Notes under the pieces: model-generated | The model's database searches: none | Seen by the model: the letters and a program-made list of their open reading frames with translations, nothing else | Told to the model about the DNA's origin: nothing | Source: Streptomyces sp. NBC_01283 | Lineage (GTDB): Bacteria; Actinomycetota; Actinomycetes; Streptomycetales; Streptomycetaceae | Length of the DNA: 64,000 nt | Direction: 5' to 3' | Assembly: GCF_041435335.1 (NCBI RefSeq) | Contig: NZ_CP108430.1 | Span: 8,714,001 to 8,778,000 of the forward strand | Shown: positions 55,097 to 64,000 of the stretch, piece by piece | Numbering within the stretch: the first letter of the stretch is position 1 | How the letters are laid out: each line of letters begins with the position of its first letter | Translations under genes and position numbers: made by a program

Positions 55097-55713
55097 GTGC
55101 CCGCCATCGACCCACCCAGAAGCAGGCCCTGCGGGAGACTCCCCGCCGGGTCGGTCCGCGGCGCCGTCGCCCTGACGGCGCTGCTCGTCACGCTCGCCGC
55201 GGTCCCGGCGACCGCCGGGCAGTCCGACGGAACCCGAGGCGGCGGCGCAGGGCACTGCGCGTCGTCGGGACGGCTGAAGGTACCGGGCGCGGAACGCCAG
55301 GAGGTGTCCTGCCTGGCCGAGTTGACCACCGCGGGGACGGTCGCTTCGGGCCACACCGACCCGGCCGACTGGGCGGGCCTGACCCCGGCCGGACTCGCGA
55401 CACCGCGCGGCGTGCCCGGCATCCAGATCGACGGCTACTTCCCCGACAGCTCGGCGACCAACACGAACCACGGCTGGCAGCACGACGCGCAGTTCGTCAT
55501 CCGCCTGCCCGACCGGTGGAACGGCGGCCTGGTCGTCGCGGGCACACCCGGAGTCCGCGAGCAGTACGCCAACGACCGCGCGATCAGCGACTGGGTGCTC
55601 TCCCGGGGCTACGCGTTCGCGTCGACCGACAAGGGCAACACCGGCGCCGCCTTCCACCGGGACGGGGCCGCGCCGGGCGACGCGATCGCCGAATGGAACG
55701 ACCGCGTCACCCA
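55097..55713 (+). pseudogene. 5' part of a split tannase/3HB-oligomer-hydrolase-type gene
   Basis: GTG start behind GGAGGAG, signal peptide ending near ATA. PDRWNGGLVVAGTPGVREQY and VLSRGYAFASTDKGNTG are typical of the secreted tannase/3-hydroxybutyrate oligomer hydrolase family. Host coding stops at DRVT near 55713. The reading frame then runs into the inserted DNA and ends at a TAG at 55730-55732, giving a truncated 211-aa product. The rest of the gene resumes at 63461. Following the PHB depolymerase, the intact enzyme would have cut its oligomer products. Confidence 0.85.
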
Positions 55714-55730
55714 CGTCAAGCCTTGTTCAT
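55711..55730 (+). repeat. Junction site 1 (host / unit 1 left end)
   Basis: ccacgtcaagccttgttcat. Together with the preceding c, the first 13 bases cccacgtcaagcc are identical to the left end of unit 3 at 61974-61986. Confidence 0.75.
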
Positions 55731-55732
55731 AG

Positions 55733-55977
55733 CCCTTTCTGCGGCTGGCACGCCATGAGCAGATTTGACGGACCGAGGGCGACTGCTCGGCCGGGGCCGT
55801 GTGACGCCCCCTCGGTTGCCTCCAGCGAGTTGACCTGCAGTGTTGGATCTCCACCCAGCCTTTGACGAATGCATATGCGTGGCGGCAGTTGCTGGATAGA
55901 GTCGCCTCGTCACAGTTGGTTGTGGGGACAACCGAAGTGTCTTTCGGCTGCCAACGTCCTGGGGAGGGCCTGCAACA
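55733..55977. other. Leader region of unit 1
   Basis: 245 bp between the unit end and the Mrr-TerD gene. No gene or clear promoter was recognised. Confidence 0.4.
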
Positions 55978-58038
55978 ATGAGTCGTCGTTCTACCGGTCT
56001 TGTCGGCACGTGGGCTGAGGTGCAGCGACAGCAGCAGCGCCAGTCGGAAGCCGAGGTCAGACAGCGGAGACAAGAAGCTCAGCAAGCACGGGCGTACCAG
56101 CGCCGAGCTGCCCAAAGCCACCGCGAGTACAGGCAGGCAGACGCGCTGCGTCGCACGGAGGATCTGGACGCGGAGGTAGCAGCACTGCAAAGCCTTCTCG
56201 CTTCAGGTTGCGACGCTCCGGCTTTCAGGGTGTCCTCACTCATGCGAGCCGAGGACGTTCAGCCCTTCGCTCCAGGTCAGTTGGCGCAGTCGGTGCCTAT
56301 GCCGGATGCCAGTCAGTACCAAGCCCAGGGTGGTTGGACTGCGAGTCGCCGGGCTCATGCGCAGGCCGAGGCGCGGGCGCGGTTCGAGCGGGATCTGCAG
56401 GTTGCACAGGCAGCGGAGGCCCACCGCCAACAGCAACTGGCCTCGTATCAGCGCGAGTACCAACAGTGGGTCGACTCCCAACTGGCCGCGGTACGTGAGC
56501 ACAACGCCGGCGTGGTCGCGATATCCGAAGGCGTGAGGCGCCGGGACCCCGACTCCGCGGTCGAGTACTTCTCAGCTGCGCTCTACTCCTCAACGGCGTG
56601 GCCTGATGGCTTCCCGCGACAGATAGCGGCAGCGTACGACTCCACTGCCCGACAGCTGGTGCTCGATTGGGAGTTACCTGCCTACGACATCGTCCCTGCG
56701 ATCAAGTCCGTTCGGTACATGTACGGGACTGACCAGGACAAGGAGACTCCCCGCCCGGAAAGCCAGCGTCGGGCCCTGTACAAGGAAGTCCTCGCCCAGT
56801 GCATGTTGCTTGTCCTGCACGAGCTCTTCGCGGCGGACGAACAGGGGGCGCTGGAGTCCGTGGCCCTGAACGGGTTCGTCGACGGACATGACCCCACGAC
56901 GGGCCGACCGGGCCACATCTTCCTCGCGACGGTCATGGCCTCACGCTCCTCGTTCCGTGACCTGCACTTGGCACAGGTGGATGCAGGCAGTTGCCTGGCC
57001 GGGGCCCTGAGAGGGCAGCTCTCGAACAGGCCGGACCAGCTCACACCGGTACGGCCGAGCCGTCGGCCACAAGACGTGGGAAATCGCGTTGTCGCCCACG
57101 GCAGCGATGAAGAACCGGACCTGTACGACATGGATCCGGTGGAATTCGAGAATCTCGTGGCAGATCTCTTCCGCGCCATGGGGATGCAGGCAGTGACGAC
57201 CCAGCGCTCAAGCGATGGAGGTGTGGACGTCGACGCGCTGGATCCGACACCAATCCGAGGTGGCAAGATCGTCGTTCAGGTGAAGCGCTATCGCAACACG
57301 GTGCCGCCCACTGCTGTGCGTGACCTGTACGGGACCGCGCAGGGCGCAGGCGCCAACAAGGGCGTCTTGGTGACGACGTCTGGGTTCGGACCCGGCTCTC
57401 ATACCTTCGCCAACGGCAAGCCGCTGGAACTCATCTCGGGCACGGAACTCGTCGACCTGCTGCATCGTCACGGACTGCGCGGACGATTAGGAGAGGGCGG
57501 TCGTCAAGGCTCACCGCAGCCGACCCCGCCGGACCCGAACACTCGGCTCCCTGACGACTACAACGTCCTGGGAATGTCGTGGACCGGAAGCGTTGCCTTG
57601 GACGTGTGTGCACTCGTCTGCCATGCCAACCGCGTCCTGAGTGACGATCATTTCGTCTTCTTCAACAATCCACAGACCCCCGACGGGTCCGTGCGCGCCC
57701 TTCCCGCGGTGGCGCCTGACAAGGCTGCGATCTGTGTCGCCTTCGACGGGCTGCCGGTGGAGGCTGATCGGTTCGTGCTGGTGGCGGCCATCGATCCGGA
57801 GGCCAACCCGGACGCGGATCTCTCGGGATTCACAGATGCCTGCATCCGGCTGCTCGATCCGGCGATGTCGGAGCTGGGACGGCTGGAGGTCTCTGACGGC
57901 CGACCGCTCGAAACTGCCTTGGTGCTCGGGTCCTTCCGCCGAAGGTCCAGTGGAGACTGGGAGTTCGTCCTTGGCGGCAAGGGCTACAGGGGCGGTCTGG
58001 AGGAACTCGTTCAGGACTATGGCATCGATGTGGAGTAG
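55978..58038 (+). CDS. Mrr-type restriction endonuclease fused to a TerD domain
   Basis: 686 aa. N-terminus (about 10-170) is Gln/Arg/Ala-rich coiled coil. Residues about 380-500 are an Mrr-like nuclease: FENLVADLFRAMGM, SSDGGVDVDAL and VVQVKRYRN give the PD-(D/E)xK residues. Residues about 520-686 are a TerD domain: LDVCALVCHANRVLSDDHFV, FFNNPQTPDGSV and ETALVLGSFRRRSSGDWEFV. TerD domains bind calcium and belong to stress/phage-response systems. ATG follows GGGGAGG. Predicted DNA-cleaving effector with a TerD sensor; the fusion is uncommon. Confidence 0.85.
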   Translation: MSRRSTGLVGTWAEVQRQQQRQSEAEVRQRRQEAQQARAYQRRAAQSHREYRQADALRRTEDLDAEVAALQSLLASGCDAPAFRVSSLMRAEDVQPFAPGQLAQSVPMPDASQYQAQGGWTASRRAHAQAEARARFERDLQVAQAAEAHRQQQLASYQREYQQWVDSQLAAVREHNAGVVAISEGVRRRDPDSAVEYFSAALYSSTAWPDGFPRQIAAAYDSTARQLVLDWELPAYDIVPAIKSVRYMYGTDQDKETPRPESQRRALYKEVLAQCMLLVLHELFAADEQGALESVALNGFVDGHDPTTGRPGHIFLATVMASRSSFRDLHLAQVDAGSCLAGALRGQLSNRPDQLTPVRPSRRPQDVGNRVVAHGSDEEPDLYDMDPVEFENLVADLFRAMGMQAVTTQRSSDGGVDVDALDPTPIRGGKIVVQVKRYRNTVPPTAVRDLYGTAQGAGANKGVLVTTSGFGPGSHTFANGKPLELISGTELVDLLHRHGLRGRLGEGGRQGSPQPTPPDPNTRLPDDYNVLGMSWTGSVALDVCALVCHANRVLSDDHFVFFNNPQTPDGSVRALPAVAPDKAAICVAFDGLPVEADRFVLVAAIDPEANPDADLSGFTDACIRLLDPAMSELGRLEVSDGRPLETALVLGSFRRRSSGDWEFVLGGKGYRGGLEELVQDYGIDVE

Positions 58039-58049
58039 AACAGGCTGGG

Positions 58050-58104
58050 CGTGGATGAGGTCTGTGCAAGCGGCTTGATGACCATGTCGAGCCGGCTTGA
58101 TGAT
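58050..58104 (+). repeat. Junction site 2 (unit 1 right end / unit 2 left end)
   Basis: tctgtgcaagcggcttga, then tgaCCAtg, then tcgagcc. It closely matches site 4 on its left half and sites 1 and 3 on its right half. A second gccggcttgatga follows directly, and the ATG proposed for the next gene lies in it. Confidence 0.7.
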
Positions 58105-61100
58105 CGTCCGCGTACACCATGGACGAGGAGGCGCGGGTGGCTATACGAATGAAACCGTGTACTCACTGCGCCAGCGTGACAACCGAAGGTCACTGGCCGA
58201 GCGCCTGTTGCTCTACATGCTGCCGGGCTTGGCCGTCGCGATCGGGGCCCTGCTGGGGCTCCTCACGTCTGACCACATCTCCCCTGTCCTGGTGGTCCTC
58301 ACAGCCCTGGTCACGGTGTGCGGATTCGCGGTACCACCGGCGGTTGATGCGCTCAGCGATCGAGTTTCCAGGCGGGCGCAGCACCAGCAACTGCTGGCTC
58401 AAAGGTCAGATACCGCGGCTGCGCAGCGGGCGGAGCAGTTGCGCAGTCACTTCCACCCTAGAGGGCGTGGAATTCTGCCTTCGCTCGTGCGCGAGGGCTC
58501 GTACTTCATGGGTCGGCTGCGAGTGCTGCGTGAGCTGGTGGACTGGATCAACGGCGCCGGTCTGGACGTTGCGTGGTCTCGCGTCGTGACTGGTGCACCG
58601 GGATCCGGTAAGTCAGCGGTTCTCGGAAGGCTGGTGAGTCTGGCCGACGCCGGACAACCCAATGAGGTGCTTGCCACAGCACCGGCCGGGACGCGACCGC
58701 CGGTCGGCTCCATCAGCATGGCGGTGCACGTACGTGGCCGCACGGCAGACGAAGTGGCCGCCGAGATCTCACAGGCCCTGACGATCGACGAGGGGACGTG
58801 CAGCGGTCTCCTCGCACATCTCCGCGAGGATGTCGAGCATCGACCAACTGTAGTCGTCGTCGATGGGGTGGATGAGGCTGCTGACGCCCATCGGCTCATC
58901 GTTGACCTACTCGAGCCTCTGGCGGCTGCGTCGGAGCGGACGGGCATCCGTCTGCTCGTCGGCACGCGCCGAGGTGGCGAGGACCACCTGCTGCGGCTGT
59001 TCGGAGCTTCAGCGCTCATACTCGATCTGGACGATGAGCAGTATCTGGATCGACGCGATGTTGCCGAGTACGTCTGCAGCACATTGCTGGCCGATCCGGA
59101 CCCGCAGGTCCGCACTCCCTACCGTGCCCGCCCTGCACTCGCGGAGAAGGTAGCTGTGGCCGTAGCAGCTCGTGCCGGCTCCAGTTTTCTCGTGGCACAG
59201 CTCACGGCGCTGTCTCTGATGGGATCTGACGAACCCGTGGATACAGGGAGCTCGGGGTGGGCGGAGACGTTTCCCACCACAGTGGGTACCGCCATGGACC
59301 GATACCTTCGTGACGTTCAGCCAGGTGGGCCGTGGTTACGCGATCTGCTGATGGCTCTGGCCTGGTCCCAGGGCGACGGCTTCAGTGACCCGGGAACCTG
59401 GGCGGCCGCGGCCACCCTGCTGGGAACAGCCGCGTACTCCGAACGCGATGTCACCCGGCTGCTCCTGGACAGCGCTGCGGTGGACCTGCTCCACCGCAGC
59501 ACCCACGGAGACCGTGTCGCCTTCCGACTCTTCCACGAAGCGCTGGGCGAGCATTTGCGGCAGCTGAGCACCCGTCAGCGTCCGGCAGCCGAGGTCCACC
59601 GCCGTCTTGCGGACATCCTCGTCGAGAAGCTGTCGTCGTCTTCCCTCGGCGAGCGGGACTGGGCGCACGCCGACAGCTACACGCGTACCTACCTGCCTTT
59701 TCATGCGGGCGAGGGCCAGGTGCTGGACCAGCTCCTCGATGACGCGGGCTTTTTGGCTGCCGTGGATCCGGCTCGCCTGCTGACGGCACTCCCCGAGGCT
59801 CGCACCGGGTCGGGTCGGCGAGTGGCTCGCATCATTCAGCGAGTCGGCCAGCAACTGCTTGTGGCACCGGAAGACGAGCGCATCTGCTACCTCGAGATGG
59901 CGGCCCACATGTCCGGCGACGTGCGCTTGGCGGGCGAATTGGCAGCTACAGCTCCCGATCGTCCCTGGTCGGTGCTCTGGGCTCGCTGGGACGCTCTCAT
60001 CGAGAGCCGCATGCTCGGTCACCATGACGACTACGTCCTGGCTGTCGACACCGTTGAGACAGCGAGGGGGATCGTGGTGCTCTCGGCGAGTGCATGGGGC
60101 ATCCAGGCCTGGCGCCTCGCCGATGGAGAACCCATGGTGACCGGTGTACGGGAGCCGGATTCACCCATCCTCGACATGGCTGCCTTCCGGCAGGGTGACG
60201 GCATCGCCATCGTGACCCTTCACGAAGATGGGCATCTACTGCGCACGTCGCCGGACGCGGGCGATCCGCAGAGGATTCTCGCGGAAGGTCGTGCGCCAAA
60301 CGGTGTCTGGTCGTTAGACGTCGCAGGTCAATCCGCAGTGGCTACGGTCAGCCGAGATCACGTAGTCGAGGTCTTGTCCGCCAGGGACGGTCATGTGCTG
60401 GATCTGCCGCCCGTCGTGATCGGTCGAGATGACCGAGTACTCATGGTGGACAACGTAGGTGGGCAGTGCTTTGCCGTGGTGAGCGGCGACAGTGCTGACA
60501 TCAAAATGTGGGACCTCACCGCCGGTCGTCAGCTCAGTGAACCGCTGCGCCCCGGAGTTCACGTGCCGGGCTGGCGGAGTGACACGCGCTTCTGGGCTGC
60601 ATCGCTCGCCGAGCGCCAGGACGGGCCCGTGTTCCTTCTGGGAACTACGGCAGGCCAGGTGATCGCTTGGGATCCGATCCGCGGAGAGGTTGTCGGGGAC
60701 CCGCAACATGGTGACGCGGGAGTGTTCACCACTCTGGTTACGGGGCACGACAACGACCTGTGGTGTTGGGGTGATTGGAACGGCAACCTGTTCATGCATG
60801 GCGCTGCCCAAGAGGAGGTACGGCAACTGGCCGTTCATGACGGCGGGGTGCAAGCGCTGGCACAGTGCGAACTGAACGGTGCGCGCTTGCTCATCTCGGG
60901 GGGACGCGACGGCGCCGTACGCGCCTGGAACGTCCAAGCAGCCCGCCCGGTGGCTTCTTTCGGCGACCACCACAGCGTCGTAGCGGGAGCCGACTCCACC
61001 CGACAGAGCTGCATCGCGTCCATCAGGGCCGACGGCTCTCTTGTGATCTTCGAGGCGGACGCCGGTGGTGTCCTCGCCGAACTGAGGCGATCGGCCGAGG

Positions 61101-61906
61101 AGGGCTTCCGCTGCGCAGCCGTGATGCCGGGCGACCCGCGGTCCTTCGTCACGCTGGACAGGCAGCGGCGCATTACGCTGCGGGGCTTCCCGGACGGCCG
61201 ACCGTCACACGACTTCCAGTTGGCCGCGGACGAGGAGTGGAGGTCTATCGCTGTCATGAACAGGCAGCGGCCATTGCTCCTCGTCACTGCGACAAGCGGG
61301 CGCCTGGGCTTCTTCGACCTGGCCACTTGTGATGCCGTTCGGCCACCGCTGGCCTGCCACACCGGCAGGTTCATGGTGGCTCCGCTCCCAGAGCAACCGG
61401 ACGAAGCACACCGGTTCATCACGTGGGACTGGGAGTGCTTCCAGGCACGGCTATGGAACGTGAGGAGCGACGAGACGCGGCATCTCGACCTACCAGTCCT
61501 CAGAGTGGACAACGGCGACCCGTTTTCCATCTCGGCTGTCTCCTTCGGTCACATAGGTGACATCCCGGTCGCCGTTGGAGTCGGCGGCTACTCTCGTCTG
61601 CACATCTGGAACACCGAAGACGGTTCCCTGATGATCGATGCCCAACTCGAGCAGGCTCATCACATGGCATTGCTCGACGTGGACACCACCCAGATCGACA
61701 GGCAGTCGCTCATGCTCTCCGGCGGACACACCTGCTCCGCTGCCCTGTGGTCCGCGGAAAGTCGACGAGAGCACCATCTGCGGGTCGGATCACCGTTGCA
61801 GAGCACCAGGTTCCTTCCCGGCAACCGAGCAGTCGTGGCCGGGTCACGCGGCATCATGGTTCTCGAACTGGGCTCCCGCTTGCTCAGTCGATTCGAGCGC
61901 CCCTGA
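58097..61906 (+). CDS. NACHT/STAND-like P-loop NTPase with C-terminal beta-propeller
   Basis: Up to 1269 aa. Two hydrophobic segments near residues 33-75 (MLPGLAVAIGALLGLL and ISPVLVVLTALVTVCGF) suggest membrane anchoring. Walker A is TGAPGSGKSAVL (about 165) and Walker B VVVVDGVDEA (about 251), followed by a helical region. From about residue 620 come WD-like repeats (DGAVRAWNVQAARPVASF; SRLHIWNTEDGSLM). The start is uncertain: ATG 58097 lies in the junction repeat, and GTG 58157 is an alternative. Predicted ligand-sensing STAND switch; defence role inferred. Confidence 0.8.
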   Translation: MMIVRVHHGRGGAGGYTNETVYSLRQRDNRRSLAERLLLYMLPGLAVAIGALLGLLTSDHISPVLVVLTALVTVCGFAVPPAVDALSDRVSRRAQHQQLLAQRSDTAAAQRAEQLRSHFHPRGRGILPSLVREGSYFMGRLRVLRELVDWINGAGLDVAWSRVVTGAPGSGKSAVLGRLVSLADAGQPNEVLATAPAGTRPPVGSISMAVHVRGRTADEVAAEISQALTIDEGTCSGLLAHLREDVEHRPTVVVVDGVDEAADAHRLIVDLLEPLAAASERTGIRLLVGTRRGGEDHLLRLFGASALILDLDDEQYLDRRDVAEYVCSTLLADPDPQVRTPYRARPALAEKVAVAVAARAGSSFLVAQLTALSLMGSDEPVDTGSSGWAETFPTTVGTAMDRYLRDVQPGGPWLRDLLMALAWSQGDGFSDPGTWAAAATLLGTAAYSERDVTRLLLDSAAVDLLHRSTHGDRVAFRLFHEALGEHLRQLSTRQRPAAEVHRRLADILVEKLSSSSLGERDWAHADSYTRTYLPFHAGEGQVLDQLLDDAGFLAAVDPARLLTALPEARTGSGRRVARIIQRVGQQLLVAPEDERICYLEMAAHMSGDVRLAGELAATAPDRPWSVLWARWDALIESRMLGHHDDYVLAVDTVETARGIVVLSASAWGIQAWRLADGEPMVTGVREPDSPILDMAAFRQGDGIAIVTLHEDGHLLRTSPDAGDPQRILAEGRAPNGVWSLDVAGQSAVATVSRDHVVEVLSARDGHVLDLPPVVIGRDDRVLMVDNVGGQCFAVVSGDSADIKMWDLTAGRQLSEPLRPGVHVPGWRSDTRFWAASLAERQDGPVFLLGTTAGQVIAWDPIRGEVVGDPQHGDAGVFTTLVTGHDNDLWCWGDWNGNLFMHGAAQEEVRQLAVHDGGVQALAQCELNGARLLISGGRDGAVRAWNVQAARPVASFGDHHSVVAGADSTRQSCIASIRADGSLVIFEADAGGVLAELRRSAEEGFRCAAVMPGDPRSFVTLDRQRRITLRGFPDGRPSHDFQLAADEEWRSIAVMNRQRPLLLVTATSGRLGFFDLATCDAVRPPLACHTGRFMVAPLPEQPDEAHRFITWDWECFQARLWNVRSDETRHLDLPVLRVDNGDPFSISAVSFGHIGDIPVAVGVGGYSRLHIWNTEDGSLMIDAQLEQAHHMALLDVDTTQIDRQSLMLSGGHTCSAALWSAESRREHHLRVGSPLQSTRFLPGNRAVVAGSRGIMVLELGSRLLSRFERP

Positions 61907-61950
61907 GAAGCGATCAACGGAGCAATCCCACCCTCTTCAGCCCACGCGAG

Positions 61951-61996
61951 AGGTCACGAACGCGGCTTGATGACCCACGTCAAGCCGTGCTCACAA
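61951..61996 (+). repeat. Junction site 3 (unit 2 right end / unit 3 left end)
   Basis: Best dyad of the set: gaacgcggcttga (61958-61970), a 9-nt centre tgacccacg, then tcaagccgtgctc (61980-61992). The arms match at about 11 of 13 positions, the layout of a tyrosine-recombinase core site or of two element ends meeting. Confidence 0.75.
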
Positions 61997-62009
61997 ACCA
62001 TTTGTGGGG

Positions 62010-62032
62010 CAGGCCGGATTCACACCGGCCTG
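62010..62032 (+). terminator. Hairpin caggccgg-N7-ccggcctg
   Basis: Perfect 8-bp arms 18 bp inside unit 3. It could stop transcripts coming from unit 2. Confidence 0.5.
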
Positions 62033-62405
62033 TGTTCCATGGAGACAGACTGCTACTCGTGGCAACGGCAATGGCTGACCAGAGGGAGAAAGCCGGCGGC
62101 TCGGCACTCGGAGTAGTTACCGTGGAAGATTCGCCATGCGGACCGGAGTGAGGCAGCCCTCGTCCCGGGACAGTAGGACGCGCGCGCACGCGCACGTGGA
62201 TCGAGCAGGAGGAGCAGCGCGAGGCCGAACAGATCCGCGGCGAGCAGGCCCGACACGTGAGTGGAACTTGACCCCCGACGGATCCTTGGACCGGCGTCCA
62301 GACTGAGTGTGAGTCTTCGCCCCCGAGCGCAATCGGAGACCCTCAAGTGACGCACGGAAGGCGGACGGTCAGGACAACGCTCACTTCCTAGAGCAGACTG
62401 TCGCA

Positions 62406-63038
62406 ATGCAGATGACCGAGTCGTACGCGGCCACAGTGGCGGCCGTCGTACCCGTGCTTTGGCTAGTGGGTGCCGTCGAGCAACACCAGCTCGCAAAGGC
62501 CTTCGCTCAGAGGTCCCGAGAGCTCCAAGATATGGTTGCTGATCACCGCCGGACGATGGCTGCCGTAGGCGAGGGGGCTACCGTCGCCCAACTTCAAGCG
62601 GCCATGGAAAGTCTGAAGTTGGCCCCACCCGATCGCGACGCAAAGATCAAGAACTTTGCCAGTGCTGCTTGGGCGATCGCAATCGGCGTGCTCCTCCCAG
62701 CGGAGGCGGCGGCGCTGACCTGGCTCGCTGATCCCTCAAGGGGGCCCCAAGAGCTGTGGGCTACGTACTGCTGGTGGGCGACCATGACGGGTTTCCTAGC
62801 AGTTGGATCAGTCCCGCTCGTGATGGCGCTCTGGACGGACCGTCAGGCCACTAGGGGAATGCGTGCCGACACTATGGAAATTCGCGAGCTCAGAAGGCAA
62901 TTACTGCGAGACTTCGAGAACCGCGTTCACGTACTAATGGAGCGTGCCGACACGGCACGAACTCCGGAAGAGGTGGAGGAGATCGAGCGTCTCTTGAGAG
63001 AAATCGATGGCCGTTCCGTTGACGATCCACCGCAGTAG
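62406..63038 (+). CDS. Small membrane protein with C-terminal coiled coil
   Basis: 210 aa, no recognised family. Three hydrophobic stretches (about residues 8-25, 90-108, 120-140: AAVVPVLWLVGAV; AIAIGVLLPAEAAALTWLA; TMTGFLAVGSVPLVMALW) and a charged helical tail (MEIRELRRQLLRDFENRVHV; RTPEEVEEIERLLREID). It is the only sizeable gene of unit 3. The ribosome site is weak. A membrane effector is possible given its neighbours, but there is no direct evidence. Confidence 0.6.
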   Translation: MQMTESYAATVAAVVPVLWLVGAVEQHQLAKAFAQRSRELQDMVADHRRTMAAVGEGATVAQLQAAMESLKLAPPDRDAKIKNFASAAWAIAIGVLLPAEAAALTWLADPSRGPQELWATYCWWATMTGFLAVGSVPLVMALWTDRQATRGMRADTMEIRELRRQLLRDFENRVHVLMERADTARTPEEVEEIERLLREIDGRSVDDPPQ

Positions 63039-63460
63039 GAAGCACTCTCCAAAGAGGAGATCTGGGTCGACGGCCAGTGGCGATCAAGCGAATCATCGTG
63101 AAGAGGGTCCACATCCTTATCCGGTTCGCTGGCGGGCACCGTTTGGAGTGCGAGCCGAGTGTCCGATTTCATGTGCGCAGACCAGCTCAATGGATCGGTC
63201 CGAGGCACGTCTTTGCTGTGATGCAGGCTTTGGCAGGACGCTTCGGAGGCGACTCCGTCTGCTTGGGCGTGGCCTTCGACTGACCGCACACAACATGCCT
63301 GCCGTACGACACAGGGGCGATGCCGGGCTGGCTCGCCGCCAACCGGTGTCCTCCAAGCGTCCAACTAGTGCGCCCAGGAAGCCACCCCACCACCCTGACA
63401 AGCCTTCCACGTCGCGCCACCAACGACATGGATGAAGTCTGTGAACGCGGCTTGATGGTC
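63039..63460. other. 3' region of unit 3
   Basis: Apart from the doubtful small ORF above, nothing recognisable lies between the membrane-protein gene and the end repeat. Confidence 0.4.
63077..63283 (+). CDS. Possible small ORF of unit 3
   Basis: 68 aa with a GTG start, beginning MAIKRIIVKRVHILIRF. No family recognised and no good ribosome site. It may be spurious. Confidence 0.25.
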   Translation: MAIKRIIVKRVHILIRFAGGHRLECEPSVRFHVRRPAQWIGPRHVFAVMQALAGRFGGDSVCLGVAFD

Positions 63461-63462
63461 CA
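63433..63462 (+). repeat. Junction site 4 (unit 3 right end / host)
   Basis: tgaagtctgtgaacgcggct then tgatggtCCA, passing into host caactcaccc. The left half matches site 2 (ggatgaggtctgtgcaagcg) and site 3. Confidence 0.75.
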
Positions 63463-64000
63463 ACTCACCCGCGCCGCGAGGACCGTGGTCGCGCAGCGAT
63501 ACCACAGGCCCGCCGCGCGCACCCTGGCCACCGGCATGTCCAACGGCGGGTATCTGGTGCGCTGGCAGCTGGAGAACCACCCCGAGCTCTACGACGGGGG
63601 AGTGGACTGGGAAGGCACCCTGTGGCGGACCAAGGGGCCGAACCTGCTCGACTTCCTGCCGCCCGCGCTGCGCGCCTACCCGACGTACGCGGCGGGTGGC
63701 GAAGGAGCCGGCCAGGCCCATCAGGAGATGGTCGCCACAGGTTTCCCGGCCGGTTCTGAGTTCCTGTGGCCCTATCACCACCGGGTCTACTGGGACTTGA
63801 CCCAGCGCATCTACCGCGAGGAACTCGACCCGGGCTACGACGGCGCGACCGAGGCCGGAACTCCCTTCTGCGCACCGGGGACTCCGGCGTGCGACGCCGA
63901 CTACGCGTACGCGGCCCGGCCACGGGAGGTCCACGAAGCGGTGCGGAAGATCGCCCTGACCGGACGCATCGGTAAACCCCTGATCACCGTGCACGGCACC
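63461..64000 (+). pseudogene. 3' part of the split tannase/3HB-oligomer-hydrolase-type gene
   Basis: Starts in mid-protein with QLTRAARTVVAQRY and continues TGMSNGGYLVRWQLENHPEL (GxSxG nucleophile) and DGGVDWEGTLWRTKGP. It is open to the window edge. It has no start codon of its own at the break. Joined after DRVT of the 55097 fragment it gives the normal family order. The nucleophile lies in this half, so the upstream fragment alone cannot be active. Confidence 0.85.

Follow-up and report, generated by a model that had tools for sequence, protein, structure and literature searches.

Arrays of mostly single-gene cassettes in Streptomyces are bounded by a 55-bp site related to those of large serine integrase elements

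We analysed a 64,000-nucleotide stretch of the chromosome of Streptomyces sp. NBC_01283 (contig NZ_CP108430.1, positions 8,714,001 to 8,778,000), hereafter the window. An alpha/beta-hydrolase-type gene that starts at 55097 on the + strand is broken there by an insert of 7,749 bp. The 5′ part of the gene (55097..55713, +), defined by its open reading frame and by homologues that are intact over the site, stops at a CCA at 55711-55713, and the 3′ part (63460..64000, +), recognised by homologue alignment, continues from a CCA at 63460-63462 past the end of the window. The first-pass annotation had described a three-unit array inserted in a hydrolase gene and had proposed a comparison with intact copies of that gene. 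Both the array and its insertion are confirmed. In ten homologues (L003-L012; 68-82% protein identity to a 205-aa query), the gene is unbroken and aligns through the site; the window flanks rejoin exactly, overlapping by 3 bp (CCA) in nine homologues and by 2 bp in L011. Within the 7.7-kb insert, three units of one gene each follow one another head to tail as an array with one degenerate junction.

The left end of the array (55711..55738, +; matrix score of 40 bits) consists of the CCA and the 25-nt left half-site of unit 1, with cgtcaagcc directly 3′ of the CCA. Unit 1 carries an open reading frame (55978..58038, +) with domain matches to an Mrr-type nuclease and TerD, which PADLOC assigns to type IV restriction. 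Junction 2 (58058..58109, +), delimited from its sequence, comprises the right half of unit 1, a CCA at 58082-58084, a remnant of a left half and a second right-half-like core. Its spacer is 8 nt instead of the usual 9, about 9 nt of the left half are left, and a second cggcttgatgatc lies downstream; with its truncated left half and second core, the segment 58082-58109 looks like the scar of a lost or deleted unit. The gene of unit 2 (58097..61906, +; TTG start assumed) has domain matches to a STAND/AAA NTPase and a WD40-like propeller. Junction 3 (61948..62002, +), found by the two-arm pattern, the weight matrix and the site model alike, is a complete 55-bp site with its CCA at 61975-61977 and reads cggcttgatgacCCAcgtcaagcc. 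The gene of unit 3 (62406..63038, +), known from its open reading frame and a homologue listing, codes for a 210-aa protein that by eye is probably a membrane protein; no Pfam family matched it, and its seven listed homologues, the window's own included, are all hypothetical proteins where named. The right end (63436..63462, +), supported by a matrix score of 38 bits and by the 17-mer search, consists of the 24-nt right half-site of unit 3 and the CCA at 63460-63462, with gtgaacgcggcttgatggt directly 5′ of that CCA. The earlier claim of four junctions built from the same parts around a central CCA holds for the parts and their positions, but junction 2 is damaged, and good copies of the repeat are confined to junction 3 and the two outer ends.

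Each intact junction is a 55-bp dyad with arms GGTCTGTGAACGCGGCTTGA and TCAAGCCKCGTTCACAGACC around TGAYCCAYG. Among 53 distinct junctions, numbered from the first C of the CCA, conservation extends no further than positions −27 and +27; the next C is conserved in 100% and the A in 98%. The arms stand 4 and 2 nt from the CCA, and the core of cassette junctions is 9 nt long (74 distinct junctions). In the window, the two-arm pattern occurs at a single site (read on both strands) compared to none in 100 shuffles, and the right-end 17-mer has four matches with at most three mismatches against a mean of 0.16 expected by chance. The left-end 13-mer at the same tolerance is not above chance (46 matches against 39.6), and only two exact copies of it stand out. 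Scanning 507 kb of loci with a weight matrix gave 109 sites, half or complete, and none when the same loci were reversed, a comparison that is not independent as the matrix was trained on these loci. Within each locus, all sites above 25 bits lie on a single strand; the exceptions to this rule are weaker matches of 17-24 bits in L063/L097, L072, L087 and L143.

Copies of unit 1 occur at other loci, where their edges fall at the site and their neighbours differ from locus to locus. Unit 1 with 500-bp flanks matches L140 (genome G304) at 95% DNA identity, the match beginning 16 bp upstream of the left CCA and stopping 28 bp before the right one is reached. It matches L070 and its shorter copy L047 (both from genome G291) at 92-93% identity, ending at the base before the right CCA, the copy in L070 being not full length and beginning 42 bp inside the left end; the match to L088 (93% identity) reaches 12 bp beyond the first base of the right CCA. 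At the left edge of unit 1, ungapped identity is 0.5 over the 50 bp that precede the CCA and 0.92 over the following 50 bp. The proposed search for units in other combinations is answered by these copies, and movement of the whole insert as one block is rejected because unit 1 recurs beside other neighbours. For units 2 and 3, the fetched loci hold no copy comparable to those of unit 1, unit 3 having weak partial matches only.

The search of Streptomyces genomes for such sites that had been suggested was carried out at several depths. Of 392 Streptomyces genomes, 22 contain the right-end pattern, at 26 places in all compared to 2 for a reversed control pattern, and 20 of the 26, in 16 genomes, were kept after their flanks were read. 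A site sequence model built from 40 of the 53 junctions matched 67 of the 392 genomes at an E-value of 0.01 or better, half-sites and AICE ends included. A junction scan of 84,980 species, each represented by one genome, with an exact pattern that diverged sites would escape, returned 27 matches in 25 stretches; the 21 strains concerned all carry the name Streptomyces. The repeat is a genuine site within the genus. The longest array that we read (L137, genome G024) has eight junctions and contains at least seven units. Seven plasmid records matched, of which four were fetched: a 970-kb plasmid of S. cadmiisoli (L099) carries a junction and one of strain NBC_01727 (L100) a left half, L101 has no site, and L102 has only a weak half of 17.5 bits. 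Carriage by phages was considered and rejected; the 55-nt consensus partially matched four phage records, none with 80% coverage, and two site patterns gave no exact match in viral contigs.

The 70 complete units, defined as those with a left and a right half, range from 594 to 4,683 bp with a median of 1,336 bp, and their largest frame follows the array strand in 40 cases and the opposite strand in 30. At a minimum length of 120 aa, the units hold 113 frames, a number of them probably spurious, in 62 clusters; family scans covered 111 of these, the two antisense frames of unit 3 of the window being excluded. DUF4291 (10 proteins), DUF3885 (5), Mrr/TerD (4) and M48 peptidase (3) lead a list made up of many single families. 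As the first-pass annotation had supposed, the recombinase appears to be encoded elsewhere: no recombinase or transposase and none of the AICE functions Int, Rep and Tra occurs among the families listed for the 111 proteins (25 of 45 matched families for Pfam, 25 of 75 for NCBIfam), and integrase HMM matches fall outside the units. Its suggestion that the system collects defence genes fared less well. Type IV restriction (4 proteins), mad2 (1) and LeoBC (1) were matched by defence models, and these are a minority of an otherwise mixed cargo. An APH-type phosphotransferase family gene is present both in one cassette (L082:1460-2350) and in an AICE described below (L136:5831-6745, genome G330).

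Reading by eye, with the gene family confirmed, placed 22 of 39 array ends (14 of 22 right ends and 8 of 17 left ends) at one point of a DUF4291 gene, where the array lies antisense inside the codons for M-T-W-I-K-P. As for the other right ends, four (L066, L073:8933, L083 and L084) are junctions whose left half is degenerate, one (L060) abuts a partial cassette and that of the window abuts the hydrolase gene; the 22 right ends include L062 and L088, to neither of which a target was given. In a DUF4291 search of 40 genomes, split halves of the gene edge the arrays of G142, G164, G347 and G330 (C199) as well as five AICE-like elements, and full-length matches occur in 12 of 17 site-free genomes. 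Six genomes of this search gave no match, including G000, the genome of the window. The hydrolase target shares 18 of 27 bases with the DUF4291 target, whereas CCA-centred 27-mers of the window average 9.9 and only 1 of 2,246 reaches 18. Because of this match, the lack of DUF4291 matches in G000 and the prevalence of DUF4291 among the targets, the hydrolase insertion looks like use of a secondary site by cassettes that are most often found in DUF4291. Intact DUF4291 genes are themselves carried by cassettes (the 10 of 111 proteins noted above, for instance L067:8807-9571, L059:9042-9740 and L137:10595-11368), this being the same gene that the arrays break, and a cassette-borne copy may stand in for the disrupted one of the host. 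In G304, this home site also holds, between two DUF4291 3′ pieces and an AICE backbone, a small defence-type cluster (L140:8493-20171) of an Mrr-TerD gene, an AbiEi/AbiEii pair, a gene for a TPR/NB-ARC protein and then, by eye, a caspase-like gene.

In genome G330, a 13.65-kb element (L136) is inserted in DUF4291 at the same CCA as the arrays. It codes for a 504-aa large serine integrase (Recombinase/Resolvase), RepSA, an FtsK/SpoIIIE protein and a GntR regulator, and possesses the Int, Rep and Tra functions by which AICEs are recognised (PMC3218068). Homologues of this integrase at an E-value of 1e-60 or better occur in 31 of the 392 genomes. Seven integrases with at least 78% identity all directly adjoin the DUF4291 start at the array insertion point, and no DUF4291 sequence is found at that position in 23 other integrase loci. 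For the five elements with both ends found, the cassette matrix gives 25-43 bits for left arms and, after omission of the three bases GAY, 23-28 bits for right arms; of 4,097 CCA positions in these element loci, 5 reach the lower left-arm limit and 2 the lower right-arm limit. In a tree of 21 integrases, from which the shorter DUF4291-site fragments L178 and L180 were excluded, those at the DUF4291 site group together in a single, fully supported clade (5/5 rows). In a neighbouring clade, which by eye seems to target a luciferase-like monooxygenase gene, eight integrases retain parts of the arm motif (TATGAGC, GGSTTG) beside their gene; in a third clade the arm motif was not seen in the upstream stretches inspected.

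The sites of the AICEs and of the cassettes are related but not identical. The left junctions of the AICEs with DUF4291 have a 6-nt core (19 distinct junctions) compared to 9 nt in cassettes, and the right arm of cassettes is displaced by 3 bp relative to that of the AICEs; no integrase adjoining a cassette-type right arm was found. In genome G265, CA alone is common to both sides of the cut, and since nothing else is shared there, CA, which is the centre of the 6-nt AICE core, is likely the crossover dinucleotide. Elements and cassettes also meet in single genomes: G330 harbors a complete one-cassette array on another contig (L068), and in G304 a relative of unit 1 and the AbiE pair lie just before the AICE. 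The clade of DUF4291-site integrases is present in 7 of the 392 genomes, making it rarer than the sites, and is absent from G000, so that the array of the window is probably stranded unless an AICE arrives.

We consider it probable that the cassettes are non-autonomous elements with halves of the 55-bp site as their ends, moved in trans by the large serine integrase of DUF4291-type AICEs. The observations beneath this reading are the exact insertion at CCA, the head-to-tail arrays, the presence of unit 1 elsewhere, and a target point and closely matching arms shared with five AICE-like elements; from these sequences we infer circles, integrase binding, catalysis and the addition of units beside existing ones. 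Cassette ends would be attachment half-sites of the DUF4291-targeting integrase, a whole 55-bp site being made up when two cassettes are joined or when one is circularised. The integrase of a resident or incoming AICE would excise cassettes as circles, which would re-enter at the CA within CCA, whether in a DUF4291 gene, next to a cassette end already in place or at a less well matching site of which this hydrolase gene is an example, in an orientation set by the non-palindromic CA overlap. Array growth is unexplained by this serine integrase model, because serine integrases are not known to join attP-like sites unaided (PMC3783163). That paper describes a Listeria phage integrase for which one recognition motif is shifted by 5 bp between attP and attB and whose unaided reaction is limited to the attP x attB pairing. 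We speculate that the displaced right arm could let cassettes join arrays. The arrays might even be a serine-integrase counterpart of integrons, in which 55-bp sites with one arm 3 bp off the parental attP enable joining in a fixed orientation, DUF4291 is the home site, AICE integrases act in trans and a cassette pool including restriction and STAND-type genes is shared among Streptomyces; this wider reading is possible, but we would not call it probable.

A different recombinase that our searches did not see, such as a diverged serine integrase, a tyrosine recombinase or an IS110/IS1111-like enzyme, could instead move the cassettes, the AICEs having the same target and arms by common descent of the sites. 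The 9-nt cassette core, as opposed to the 6-nt AICE core, speaks for this, as do tyrosine integrase matches (PF00589) in all 16 array genomes when PF07508 matches are found in 14 and missing from the other 2. The check for a co-occurring tyrosine recombinase proposed in the first-pass annotation yielded no consistent neighbour of the arrays among the PF00589 and PF07508 matches listed for the 16 genomes, the two families covered. One match in G316 lies about 16 kb and one in G394 about 4 kb from a site, the latter broken and distant. One integrase clade, on the other hand, has both the same target point and shared arms, which leaves a separate recombinase unlikely; a large serine integrase, and not the tyrosine recombinase that the first-pass annotation proposed to look for, is the best candidate on account of its target point, related arms and single clade.

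The units could also be relics of AICEs or similar elements that piled up at one site and lost int, rep and tra, with no movement of cassettes at all. Accretion and decay of AICEs at one site are described in PMC9513070, integrase remnants lie near some arrays (L073, L147, L061 and L133), and junction 2 of the window is damaged. These remnants, however, belong to other clades or are too distant, those near L073 and L147 being closest to the third clade. A large serine integrase gene directly left of a DUF4291 cassette array in G325 (S. cadmiisoli; L139:5109-6587) is likewise distant (about 28-34% identity); it adjoins genes that are AICE-like by eye, and its upstream stretch is without the arm motif. 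Since the units have single-gene size (median 1.3 kb), a common 9-nt site type of their own and, in unit 1, a recurrent member with edges at the site and different neighbours, we regard decay alone as quite improbable. The inverted arms and the CCA at each end would also fit an IS or a MITE-like element that has terminal inverted repeats and duplicates 3 bp of its target, but such an element is most improbable given the repeated use of a single target point in uniform orientation, the distance of 4 and 2 nt between arms and CCA, and the lack of a transposase among the families listed for cassette proteins; the loci read contained no relative in which these ends flank a transposase gene. The tandem one-gene modules suggest a classical integron array whose attC sites would be unusual, but this reading was rejected on site layout and is scarcely credible, as the crossover lies at the centre of a dyad conserved from −27 to +27 rather than at one end, the arms are not attC boxes and genes occupy both strands (40 versus 30 of 70 units); the earlier remark that the sites lack attC GTTRRRY boxes is thereby upheld.

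If a serine integrase does act in trans, the cassette strategy arose with an unrelated enzyme, Streptomyces has a further route to exchange accessory genes, and a sharp question follows, namely how tandem arrays could be built by an enzyme that normally recombines its sites in a single direction. The named sites, home gene and integrases make the model directly testable. In the literature within the scope of our search, which left out preprints and most subscription papers, we found no description of these arrays and no paper with the word DUF4291.

To our knowledge, single-gene cassette arrays are known chiefly from integrons. Integrons combine a tyrosine integrase with attC sites, each located at one end of a cassette and with crossover in its GTTRRRY box. 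Mobile integrons and CALINs, the latter being attC clusters without an integrase (PMC7923331), resemble the Streptomyces arrays in their tandem small modules, recombination-site borders and lack of a recombinase within the array. The cassettes reported here differ in their symmetric 55-bp site with central crossover and serine-integrase-like arms. The dif modules of Acinetobacter are also flanked by recombination sites and served by an enzyme encoded elsewhere, but they use XerC/XerD sites, that is, tyrosine recombinases (PMC12907356, PMC13141974), unlike the 55-bp sites in uniform orientation of Streptomyces. SCC and the enterococcal cassette chromosome (ECC) are moved by large serine recombinases (ccrAB) in one home gene, at att sites that measure about 50 bp and contain inverted repeats, many elements having multiple attR sites (PMC6222049); the 55-bp dyad and the 22 of 39 ends at one DUF4291 point are alike in this respect. 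ECC elements, according to the same paper, carry ccrAB and span tens of kb, whereas the cassettes are about 1.3 kb long with no recombinase among the families listed. AICEs are, according to PMC3218068 and PMC9513070, Streptomyces elements with Int, Rep and an FtsK-type Tra that accrete in tandem and may be mobilised by a helper integrase; the cassettes differ from them in carrying single genes, in having no AICE functions among the families listed, and in their 9-nt core and shifted right arm. The array works like an integron without its integrase, with sites closest to those of large serine integrase elements, of which it represents a non-autonomous, mostly single-gene, array-forming kind.
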